The position numbers were made by a program, and so were the translations under genes. From the NCBI RefSeq assembly GCF_000282095.2, contig NZ_AKKC02000011.1, positions 1 through 64,000 of the forward strand: DNA of 64,000 nucleotides. Reading direction: 5' to 3'. This DNA comes from Rhizobium sp. CF080 (GTDB taxonomy: Bacteria; Pseudomonadota; Alphaproteobacteria; Rhizobiales; Rhizobiaceae). Under the pieces are notes generated by a model. It saw only the letters and a program-made list of their open reading frames with translations. It was not told the origin of the DNA and did not search any database. Below, one piece after another: positions 41,146 through 44,353 of this stretch (positions are counted from its first letter, which is position 1; each line of letters begins with the position of its first letter).

Positions 41146-42543
41146 ATGTCGAGCCTTTCCCCCACCATGGCTGTGGCGGTGACGGACAATTCCTGGTCCG
41201 CGCATATGCGCGCGACCTTTGCGCTGGGCGTGCCGCTGGTCGGCGCCCAGCTTGCGCAGATGGCGATCAACACGACCGACGTCATCCTGGTCGGCTGGCT
41301 CGGCACAACCGAACTCGCCTCGGTGGTGCTCGCCACCCAGATGTTTTTCCTGGTCTTCATCTTCGGCACCGGGTTTACCAGCGCCGTGGTGCCGATGGTA
41401 GCGCAGGCGCTCGGGCACGGCGATACCCGCTCGGTGCGCCGTTCGGTGCGCATGGGGCTGTGGATCGCGCTTGCCTTCGGCGTGCTGACGGCGCCGCTCC
41501 TGTGGTTTTCCGAACCCATCCTTCTGACGCTCGGGCAGCAGCCGGATGTTGCGGCGAATGCACAGAGTTATCTGCGCATCGCCCAATGGGGCATTTTCCC
41601 GGCACTCGGGCTGATGGCGCTTCGAAGCTTCGTCACCGGGCTCGAGAAGGGCGGCATCGTGCTCTACGTCACGATCGCGATGTTCTTCATCAATGCCGGT
41701 CTCGCCTATCTGCTGATCTTCGGCCATTTCGGCGCGCCGGAAATGGGGCTGCACGGGGCTGCGATCGCTTCCGTTGCCGCCAACCTGTTCGGGTTCGTGG
41801 CCGCTCTCCTTTATGTGGAAAGCCAGCCGAAGATGCGGGCCTACGAGATCTTCGTGCGCTTCTGGCGGCCGGACTGGAGCATGGTGCGCGAGATCATCGT
41901 GCTCGGCCTGCCGATCAGCTTCACCATCCTGGCGGAGACCAGCCTGTTTTCGGCCGCGTCCCTGCTGATGGGCGTCATCGGCAAGCTGGAGCTCGCAGCC
42001 CACGGCATCGCGCTGCAGCTCGCGGCGATCGCCTTCATGATCCCGCTCGGCCTGTCGCAGGTGGCGACGGTGCGCGTCGGGCTCGCCGACGGCCGCGGCG
42101 ATCTTCTGGGCGTCAAGCGGGCGGCGATCGCCGTGCTCGTGGTCAGCGTGCTCTTCACGACGATCGGCAGCGTGCTTTATGCGACGATCCCGCGCTTCTT
42201 CGGCAATCTCTTCCTGGATATACGCAAGGAGGATGCCGCGACAGTGCTGGAATTGGCGGTGCCGCTGATCGTGATCGCCGGCGCTTTCCAGCTGGTCGAC
42301 GGATTGCAGGTGGTCGGTGCCAGCCTGTTGCGTGGCCTGAAAGACACCAGGGTGCCGATGGTGCTGGCGCTGATCGCCTATTGGCCGATCGGTTTTTCCT
42401 GCGCCTGGGTGTTTGCCTTCCCGCTCGGTTTTCGCGGCGAGGGCGTCTGGTTCGGCTTTGTGACCGGACTTGCGGCCGCGGCTGCTTTGCTTTGCGGCCG
42501 CTTCTGGCTGCTGGTGAACCGCCGGACGATGGCGGCCCGCTGA
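41146..42543 (+). CDS. MATE-family multidrug efflux protein
   Basis: A 465-residue 12-TM antiporter of the NorM branch. Two MatE repeats begin at about residues 25 (LGVPLVGAQLAQMAINTTDVILVGWLG) and 250 (LGLPISFTILAETSLFSAASLLMG), with conserved FQLVDGLQVVGASLLRGLKDTRVPM near the end. It should expel cationic compounds using Na+ or H+. The start follows GGAGGAG. No regulator is encoded beside it. Confidence 0.92.
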   Translation: MSSLSPTMAVAVTDNSWSAHMRATFALGVPLVGAQLAQMAINTTDVILVGWLGTTELASVVLATQMFFLVFIFGTGFTSAVVPMVAQALGHGDTRSVRRSVRMGLWIALAFGVLTAPLLWFSEPILLTLGQQPDVAANAQSYLRIAQWGIFPALGLMALRSFVTGLEKGGIVLYVTIAMFFINAGLAYLLIFGHFGAPEMGLHGAAIASVAANLFGFVAALLYVESQPKMRAYEIFVRFWRPDWSMVREIIVLGLPISFTILAETSLFSAASLLMGVIGKLELAAHGIALQLAAIAFMIPLGLSQVATVRVGLADGRGDLLGVKRAAIAVLVVSVLFTTIGSVLYATIPRFFGNLFLDIRKEDAATVLELAVPLIVIAGAFQLVDGLQVVGASLLRGLKDTRVPMVLALIAYWPIGFSCAWVFAFPLGFRGEGVWFGFVTGLAAAAALLCGRFWLLVNRRTMAAR

Positions 42544-42567
42544 GTTTCAGCGGGCTCTCCGTGTTGG

Positions 42568-42918
42568 TCAGGCCGGCAGGAGTTCCTGTAGAACCGCCCT
42601 GTGGTAGAAGCCGATGTTGGTCTCTACGCCGAGGCGTCGGCTCAACGCCTGCCGATCGATGCCTTCCTCCTCATCCGATTTTGCGACTGCGGCGATGACC
42701 GGCTGAAGGACGTGTTCGCCTTCGAACTGGAGGATGGTGATGACGTTGAACAATCCGGCGATGGAAGCCTGTTCAAGGATCAGATCCTCGATGAATCCCG
42801 GCTGGGCGCGGATCACCTCATGCGTCCTGTGAACCAGCGCCATAAATTCTTCGCGCCCTTCGACCGGAACCGCAAACCTGTTGACGCGAAAGATGCGTCG
42901 ATTCTGTATTTCGCTCAT
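42568..42918 (-). CDS. Antibiotic biosynthesis monooxygenase (ABM) domain protein
   Basis: A 116-residue dimeric alpha/beta-barrel-type protein: FRVNRFAVPVEGREEFMALVHRTHEVIRAQPGFIEDLIL and FNVITILQFEGEHVLQPVI. ABM proteins include cofactor-free quinone-forming oxygenases and small stress proteins. The only ribosome site is AGGGG 8 bases before ATG, and it is part of the carA terminator stem. A SoxR-like promoter (42953-42983) lies just upstream, suggesting induction by redox-cycling agents (inference). Confidence 0.85.
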   Translation of the reverse strand: MSEIQNRRIFRVNRFAVPVEGREEFMALVHRTHEVIRAQPGFIEDLILEQASIAGLFNVITILQFEGEHVLQPVIAAVAKSDEEEGIDRQALSRRLGVETNIGFYHRAVLQELLPA

Positions 42919-42921
42919 ATG

Positions 42922-42950
42922 AAAAACCCCTGCTCTTTTCTGAACAGGGG
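42922..42950 (-). terminator. carA terminator that also contains the ABM gene's ribosome site
   Basis: Minus-strand stem CCCCTG/CAGGGG (42945-42950 and 42927-42932) with a 12-base loop is followed by TTTTT. The 3' arm supplies AGGGG, the Shine-Dalgarno for the ATG at 42918. Confidence 0.72.
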
Positions 42951-42952
42951 CG

Positions 42953-42983
42953 TTTATGGGACCTCAACCAATGTTGAGGTCAA
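42953..42983 (-). promoter_or_regulatory. SoxR-type promoter and operator of the ABM gene
   Basis: Minus strand: -35 TTGACC (42978-42983) and -10 CATAAA (42953-42958) are separated by 19 bases, the overlong spacing of MerR-family-activated promoters. Inside is CCTCAACATTGGTTGAGG, which has the same CCTCAA-N6-TTGAGG frame and phase as the E. coli soxS site. Predicted start near 42946. Confidence 0.72.
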
Positions 42984-43017: not shown

Positions 43018-44223
43018 TCAGCGTTCCGCAAGGGCAGGCTCGCCCTTCTTCTCGCGCACCATGTTGATGAAGCGGCGGAAGAGATAGTGGCTGTCCTGCG
43101 GGCCCGGCGAGGCTTCCGGGTGATGCTGGACGGAGAAGACCTGCTTGCCTGTGACGCGCAGGCCGCAATTGGTACCGTCGAAGAGCGAAATGTGAGTCTC
43201 CTCAACGCCTTGCGGCAGAGACTTCGAATCGACCGCGAAGCCGTGGTTCATCGAGACGATCTCGACCTTGCCGGTGGTGTGGTCCTTGACCGGATGGTTG
43301 GCGCCGTGATGGCCCTGGTGCATCTTCTCGGTTTTTGCGCCGAGAGCGAGACCGAGCATCTGGTGGCCGAGGCAGATGCCGAAGGTCGGGATGTCGGTCT
43401 TGATGACGTTCCTGATGACGGGCACGGCATATTCGCCGGTGGCGGCCGGGTCGCCCGGGCCGTTCGACAGGAAGACGCCGTCGGGCTTCAGCGCCAGGAT
43501 GTCTTCGGCCGAGGTCTGGGCCGGCACGACGGTCACCTTGCAGTCGAGGCCGGCAAAGAGGCGCAGGATGTTGCGCTTCACGCCGTAATCGACGCAGACG
43601 ATGTGATATTTCGCGTCTTCCGGCTTCAGTTCGCCGTAGCCTTCGTTCCAGACCCAGGGCTTCTGGTCCCATTGCGACGACTGGCCGGATGTCGCCTCCT
43701 TGGCGAGGTCGAGGCCTTCGAGGCCGCTCCAGGCGCGGGCTTCGGCCTTCAGGGCCTCGACGTCGAAGACGCCGTTCGGGTCATGGGCGATGACGGCGTT
43801 CGGGGCGCCGTTCTGGCGGATCCAGGCGGTCAGCGCACGGGTGTCGATGCCGGACAGGCCGATGATGCCGCGGGCCTTCAGCCAGCCGTCAAGATCCTTG
43901 GCGGCGCGGTAGTTGGAGGGCTCGGTGATGTCGGCCTTGAAGATCGTGCCGACCGCGCCGCGGCGGGCTGCCGGCGTCAGGTCCTCGACGTCTTCCTCGT
44001 TGGTGCCGATATTGCCGATATGCGGGAAGGTGAAGGTGACGATCTGGCCGAGATAGGAGGGGTCGGTCAGGATTTCCTGGTAGCCGGTCAGTGCGGTGTT
44101 GAACACTACTTCGGCTGGCACCTTGCCGGTTGCGCCGATCCCGGTTCCTTCGATCACGGTGCCGTCGGCCAGAACGAGCAATGCGGTGGGTTTCTTGGTG
44201 GTCCAGGGAGCGGTCGCGGTCAT
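43018..44223 (-). CDS. carA: Carbamoyl-phosphate synthase small chain
   Basis: A 401-residue glutaminase subunit. The N-terminal CPSase_sm domain (FNTALTGYQEILTDPSYLGQIVTFTFPHIGNIG) is followed by a class I amidotransferase with the nucleophile cysteine in PTFGICLGHQMLGLALG and the His/Glu pair in QHHPEASPGP. It supplies ammonia to CarB. ATG at 44223 is favoured over 44229 because AAGGA is correctly spaced only for it. A good promoter lies at 44354-44382. Confidence 0.97.
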   Translation of the reverse strand: MTATAPWTTKKPTALLVLADGTVIEGTGIGATGKVPAEVVFNTALTGYQEILTDPSYLGQIVTFTFPHIGNIGTNEEDVEDLTPAARRGAVGTIFKADITEPSNYRAAKDLDGWLKARGIIGLSGIDTRALTAWIRQNGAPNAVIAHDPNGVFDVEALKAEARAWSGLEGLDLAKEATSGQSSQWDQKPWVWNEGYGELKPEDAKYHIVCVDYGVKRNILRLFAGLDCKVTVVPAQTSAEDILALKPDGVFLSNGPGDPAATGEYAVPVIRNVIKTDIPTFGICLGHQMLGLALGAKTEKMHQGHHGANHPVKDHTTGKVEIVSMNHGFAVDSKSLPQGVEETHISLFDGTNCGLRVTGKQVFSVQHHPEASPGPQDSHYLFRRFINMVREKKGEPALAER

Positions 44224-44353
44224 ATCCATCCTTCTGCCTCACCGGTCCCGTCCCTTGAAGGAACAGGCTGTGAGGGCCATCTATGGTCGTGAGAGACGGG
44301 CGCGCGGAAATCCCGGCGCAAGCCCAAACCTCTAAATCTCGTGCAGGTGCCGG

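Follow-up and report, generated by a model that had tools for sequence, protein, structure and literature searches.

Here, we propose that the 66 bases before a gene for an ABM-like small monooxygenase in Rhizobium sp. CF080 form one compound element, in which a SoxR-type promoter, the terminator of the upstream carA gene and a lid over the ribosome site would work together; we put the probability of this reading at roughly three in four. The element lies on the minus strand of the window (the whole 64,000-nucleotide stretch of DNA that was analysed). All of its parts, their register and their conservation are present in the sequence, as is a soxR gene in the genome. The parts and the neighbouring genes are as follows.

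42978 to 42983, minus strand: -35 element TTGACC, sharing two bases with the start of the SoxR box; TTGACC is found in 22 of 22 Neorhizobium loci.
42962 to 42979, minus strand: SoxR box CCTCAACATTGGTTGAGG, between the -35 and -10 elements, in the 19-base spacer.
42953 to 42958, minus strand: -10 element CATAAA, read directly from the sequence.
42945, minus strand: predicted transcription start, the G of a TG step 8 bases past the -10 element.
42942 to 42950, minus strand: hairpin 5' arm CCCCTGTTC, whose CCCC (42950 to 42947) precedes the predicted start and would stay untranscribed from there.
42927 to 42935, minus strand: hairpin 3' arm GAGCAGGGG, containing the sole candidate Shine-Dalgarno sequence.
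42922 to 42926, minus strand: terminator T-run TTTTT, between the Shine-Dalgarno sequence and the start codon.
42568 to 42918, minus strand: gene for the ABM-like small monooxygenase (116 amino acids), ATG at 42918 to 42916.
43018 to 44229, minus strand: carA, carbamoyl-phosphate synthase small subunit, upstream of the ABM gene and co-directional with it.
41146 to 42543, plus strand: convergent MATE transporter gene, the next gene after carA in Neorhizobium genomes that lack the ABM gene.
42535 to 42555, no strand assigned: 9-bp GC-rich inverted repeat without a T-run, overlapping the MATE stop codon.

The stop codon of carA ends at 43018 and begins 41 bases ahead of the SoxR box. We argue that oxidised SoxR would activate the long-spacer promoter and that the RNA would begin near 42945, within the 5' arm of the hairpin. 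Such RNA would be made without the CCCC half-arm, would not terminate and would not hide AGGGG firmly, and the ABM protein would be translated from it. A polymerase coming from carA would write the full hairpin and stop at the T-run, and any read-through RNA that escaped termination would hold AGGGG in the stem and go untranslated. The enzyme would be made solely upon SoxR activation, despite the position of its gene directly behind a housekeeping gene with no other good terminator evident. The register of start and hairpin would not be optional in this scheme because a whole terminator in its own leader would stop the ABM gene. The start site, the redox response, the efficiency of termination and the translational silence are what we infer from the sequence; translational hiding was likely selected in its own right, beyond termination.

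The sequence-only reading of the window had described a SoxR-type promoter, and the description is borne out. TTGACC, the 19-base spacer, an exact SoxR box and CATAAA can all be read, and the window box fits the 18-bp CCTCAA-N6-TTGAGG palindrome placed between -35 and -10. The box is present in all 22 carA-ABM loci of Neorhizobium, where it matches 11 or 12 of the 12 arm bases. A generic promoter scan, which is blind to 19-base spacers, did not list the ABM promoter. In the 7.05-Mb genome CCTCAANNTNNNTTGAGG occurs at two places and its reversed control at none, and a search for TTGACCTCAANNNNNNTTGAGG that allowed up to one mismatch returned three sites, all of them exact: at the ABM locus, next to soxR and ahead of an MFS transporter gene. 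The predicted SoxR regulon of this genome therefore consists of soxR, the MFS pump and the ABM gene. The soxR homologue on which the earlier proposal depended was indeed found: one SoxR in the genome scores above the curated cut-off of TIGR01950 (222.4 bits against 116.9), and its translation carries the cysteine pattern CIGCGCLSMQDC, whose cysteines presumably ligate the iron-sulphur cluster.

The two other predicted sites have features of their own. The third, before the MFS transporter gene, is an exact TTGACC-SoxR box (L009:1501-1522; G000:C1:472126-472147, minus strand). On the soxR strand, the box beside soxR (L002:1497-1518; G000:C7:268705-268726) comes shortly after a -10-like TATAAA, an arrangement that would fit autorepression; a promoter of TTGACC, 19 bases and TATAGT points in the opposite direction, antisense to a SpoU-methylase gene.

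We call the window protein ABM-like on its profile matches. It scores 19.3 bits against the ABM profile (PF03992), whose gathering cut-off is 23.1, and the profile matches 10 of 12 aligned proteins, including that of the window, with E of 0.01 or better (best 2e-9). Against solved structures, profile searching gave weak matches only, with SnoaB (E 0.016) placed after two armadillo-repeat/designed proteins (E 0.0097 and 0.014) that look like chance matches.

It had further been claimed that the carA terminator directly follows the promoter and that its 3' arm is the ABM Shine-Dalgarno sequence. This stood: both arms, TTTTT and the sole ribosome-site candidate can be read in the window, and all 22 Neorhizobium loci have a hairpin with a T-run between the box and the gene and a candidate Shine-Dalgarno sequence in its 3' arm. 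The features of an intrinsic terminator on the 3' side of carA, a stable GC-rich hairpin followed by TTTTT, are likewise seen in 22 of 22 loci. The 60-base stretch has a folding energy of -18.8 kcal/mol; shuffles gave -8.35 (sd 2.59), and 0 of 200 were as stable. Because a generic terminator scan gave 2 matches in 2 kb against 1.7 expected, its match here is not significant by itself. The hairpin is the sole terminator of at least 5 pairs that the scans found between carA and the ABM gene; in the stretch that runs from the stop of carA to the far end of the box, no stem of at least 5 pairs with a T-run was found in the 22 ABM-bearing Neorhizobium loci. L065 and L067 have a terminator-like 4-bp stem between carA and the box, and one locus of the 22 has a stem of at least 5 pairs within the 250 bases upstream of the -35 element, a region that reaches back into carA.

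Covariation gives modest support to the stem as an RNA structure, and the independent events are few because the 22 genomes are related. Of the pair cells in an alignment of 20 distinct rows, 95.5% are standard; changes on both sides are seen in 8 cells, and the covariation score reaches 0.174, compared with 0.118 for shuffled alignments. Each of these three values was matched by 0 of 500 shuffles. The other two of the five measures are not unusual: 2 pairs have a change on both sides, which 95 of 500 shuffles reach, and there are 8 further pair types, which 361 of 500 reach. Five of the 11 stem pairs are invariant. The outermost pair supplies 6 of the 8 double changes, yet is unpaired in 9 of the 20 rows. 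An inner pair has gone from C-G to U-A in L069 and L071, and the base of the stem is extended by TA..TA in L064 and L072 and by TG..CA in L069 to L071.

Where the SoxR-activated RNA would begin can be predicted from the distance of starts from the -10 element and from the preference for a pyrimidine-purine step at transcription starts. The sole such step 6-9 bases past the -10 element is TG in 22 of 22 loci, its G falling at 7 or 8, inside the 5' arm, and the C's that pair with the G-run precede the predicted start. A start near 42946 had been said to remove most of the 5' arm; it would remove only 4 or 5 of the 9 bases (from 42946 or 42945), all four C's facing GGGG among them. In the window, the predicted openness of GGGG is 0.00 for every 5' end tested over 42985 to 42950; it then rises to 0.11 at 42949, 0.29 at 42948, 0.45 at 42947, 0.67 at 42946 and 0.65 at 42945, and is 0.48-0.49 across 42944 to 42937. 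Consistent with the claim that read-through RNA hides the ribosome site, the G-run of the long RNA has a predicted openness of 0.00 in all 22 genomes. The companion claim, that its own start would free the site, is supported in direction and in part: predicted openness from the predicted start goes up to 0.24-0.86 (median 0.62), being at least 0.5 in 16 of 22 and below 0.5 in 6. For a less specific 6-base window it is 0.00-0.08 in the long RNA and 0.27-0.74 in the short (median 0.50; above 0.6 in 5 of 22). The folding models predict that the ribosome site opens from the SoxR start, only partly. For the short window RNA, refolding is predicted at -7.9 kcal/mol, and AGGGG is an imperfect Shine-Dalgarno sequence. 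An alternative fold of the short RNA places AGGG in a loop.

The predicted hiding was compared with that given by other discriminators. With random discriminators in place of the locus's own, the ribosome site was almost never predicted to be hidden as well (percentile at most 0.015 in 22 of 22), and with real discriminators swapped in from other genera the percentile was at most 0.05 in 20 of the 22 Neorhizobium loci. Taken together, these sequence tests support the regulatory logic of the sequence-only reading, which we continue to infer.

The window genome is taken as Neorhizobium because the four named loci with the protein are N. galegae (97% identity), N. tomejilense (93%), N. sp. (92%) and N. 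petrolearium (67%). Among the 57 Neorhizobium genomes searched, 22 hold the ABM gene, wedged between carA and the convergent MATE gene, with a gap of 87-103 bases between the carA stop and the ABM match. The box, the -35 element and their spacing are preserved across ABM proteins as low as 54% identical. A soxR gene accompanies the ABM gene in 22 of 22 genomes and is found in 17 of the 35 without it (Fisher p 1.8e-5, a statistic that ignores relatedness). In all of these 35 the convergent MATE gene follows carA at 25-262 bases; a terminator was found within 200 bases after carA in 31, with no match in L095, L101, L116 and L117, and no exact SoxR box was found in the 600 bases past carA.

The history of the gene may be one of insertion in Neorhizobium or of loss in the 35. 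A simple insertion as the sole history was considered and set aside, as L050 and L082, from other genera, share the order carA, ABM gene, convergent MATE gene, with gaps of 617 and 496 bases; because of these two loci, the genomes without the gene may be losses. Nine of the 22 loci have a perfect inverted repeat of at least 6 pairs after the ABM gene, and these repeats are not all alike. In many ABM-less genomes GGCCCGC/GCGGGCC repeats resembling the one at 42535 to 42555 form the carA/MATE terminator, and the window repeat is possibly a remnant of such a terminator.

How far the arrangement extends was surveyed in 394 genomes of the bacterial family, an even draw from a larger group, next to the genus set of 57. 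There were 56 family matches, of which 6 were left out and L051 to L054 were dropped as repeats of genomes L056, L057, L058 and L062; outside Neorhizobium, 46 of 52 family matches were analysed. Since 36 of these 46 loci carry a box matching at least 10 of 12 bases, predicted SoxR control of the ABM-like gene appears common in the family. The terminator is another matter: one between the box and the ABM gene was found in 0 of the 36 SoxR-box loci of other genera, against 22 of 22 in Neorhizobium. In L050, one terminator follows carA and a second stands shortly ahead of the SoxR promoter, with none in the leader, which is conventional insulation of the ABM gene. L088, for which no start was found, is counted among the 36 and absent from the discriminator tests and the survey of starts and openness; by eye, its ABM leader has a CCGGTTGC/GCGACCGG hairpin without a T-run directly after the SoxR box, overlapping the -10 element, and carA is close there too. 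Four ABM homologues without a SoxR box (L026, L029, L037 and L039) are instead preceded by repeated TTGACAAcatgTTGTCA-like palindromes, suggestive of a different regulator.

A lid mechanism across the whole family was also considered. At the 0.1 level, 12 of 35 other loci stood out against random discriminators (binomial p 9e-5), but only 5 of 35 did so after the swap (p 0.27). The claim was dropped because the enrichment vanished when real discriminators were swapped between loci, and it is most simply ascribed to the base make-up of the discriminators.

The Neorhizobium leader could be explained in other ways. The most serious of these holds that a SoxR promoter and an ordinary carA terminator share a short gap; compaction would account for the overlap with the ribosome site, and the hiding would have no selected role. 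A terminator alone would account for the conserved stem and the T-run, carA usually has one in genomes without the ABM gene (31 of 35), and a gap of just 87-103 bases in the 22 favours compaction. We nevertheless consider this unlikely. A full hairpin downstream of the start would terminate the gene's own RNA, so that on this argument the register would be needed for function; moreover, the arms in L069 and L071 have changed jointly to CCTCTG/CAGAGG, with the 3' arm still purine-rich.

We would be considerably more surprised if the SoxR-activated RNA began further upstream and kept the full hairpin as an attenuator or a translational brake on its own message. The 5' end of this RNA is a prediction, and starts 3-6 bases past the -10 element of the window would retain part or all of the stem; however, those positions in the window are C's, TG is the sole pyrimidine-purine step at 6-9 in 22 of 22, and a complete terminator in its own message would silence the ABM gene. 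Even less weight, close to none, goes to expression mainly by read-through from carA with the SoxR box as a relic. A co-directional carA at short distance would permit it, but the box, the -35 element and their spacing have been retained in loci whose proteins are down to 54% identical, soxR is there in all 22 genomes with the gene, and the ribosome site is predicted to be closed in read-through RNA. Among these explanations, the compound element is the one that we prefer.

Protection of a gene against outside promoters is familiar from IS10 and IS50, and the likeness to our locus would be that transcripts arriving from outside are stopped and the ribosome site is covered. The same likeness, predicted for the window, holds for the IS200 leader, in which one stem-loop terminates incoming RNA and a second occludes the ribosome site, according to the part of the source available to us (PMC3196728); there, two stem-loops guard a transposase, whereas here one hairpin would serve both ends at a chromosomal stress gene and would be bypassed by the gene's own inducible start. 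The closest parallel is the lysozyme gene e of phage T4. In the accessible part of its description (PMC3014915), longer upstream RNAs bury the ribosome site in a stem, while gene e RNA from the immediately upstream late promoters is made without the 5' portion of the stem and is translated efficiently; the I-TevI leader is described there as similar. The window would resemble gene e in having a split stem; its long RNA is predicted to be closed, and its own start is predicted inside the 5' arm. It differs in that the short RNAs of gene e come from phage late promoters, whereas the window has a SoxR box between its promoter elements. The available text of PMC3014915 does not describe the T4 hairpin as the terminator of an upstream gene, and the window hairpin has a T-run.

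On the side of regulation, PA2274 of Pseudomonas aeruginosa and SCO1909 (ecaB) of Streptomyces coelicolor are SoxR-controlled monooxygenases, and the predicted window regulon resembles the transporters and PA2274 of P. aeruginosa, a likeness by description of SoxR control in the part available (PMC4146615). In the accessible account (PMC4411124), the mfsA promoter of S. maltophilia likewise combines TTGACC with a 19-bp spacer, and its SoxR box lies between the -35 and -10 elements. Unlike the window, mfsA, PA2274 and SCO1909 come with no mention of a start-spanning terminator and ribosome-site hairpin in the portions available of these two sources. A literature search found no paper on the carA-ABM locus, and the literature searched, which covered few subscription papers, yielded no single hairpin that does both termination and occlusion with an inducible start inside it. 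That SoxR can control such monooxygenases is already known, as is split-hairpin silencing in T4 gene e; as far as searched, their joining with the terminator of an upstream gene is new.

We lean, by a small margin over an even chance, towards the following account of its origin. A Neorhizobium gene under SoxR control, placed between carA and its convergent neighbour and without a separate carA terminator, would have acquired one hairpin that is terminator, lid and promoter discriminator at once. Half of the stem would be written only by transcription from outside, and the start chosen by a redox activator would set both elongation and translation. It would be a chromosomal, non-mobile form of T4-gene-e-type silencing fused to a terminator, under selection across 22 genomes of the genus's species.

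If this is right, the start site of a promoter decides whether a terminator and a ribosome-site lid are present in the RNA, and no separate insulator is needed for a tightly inducible gene to adjoin a constitutive housekeeping gene. The signature is searchable, as a promoter discriminator with complementarity to the Shine-Dalgarno sequence of the same gene, followed by a T-run, and may lead to more cases. The leader of the Neorhizobium ABM gene would then be a compact natural design for insulated inducible expression.
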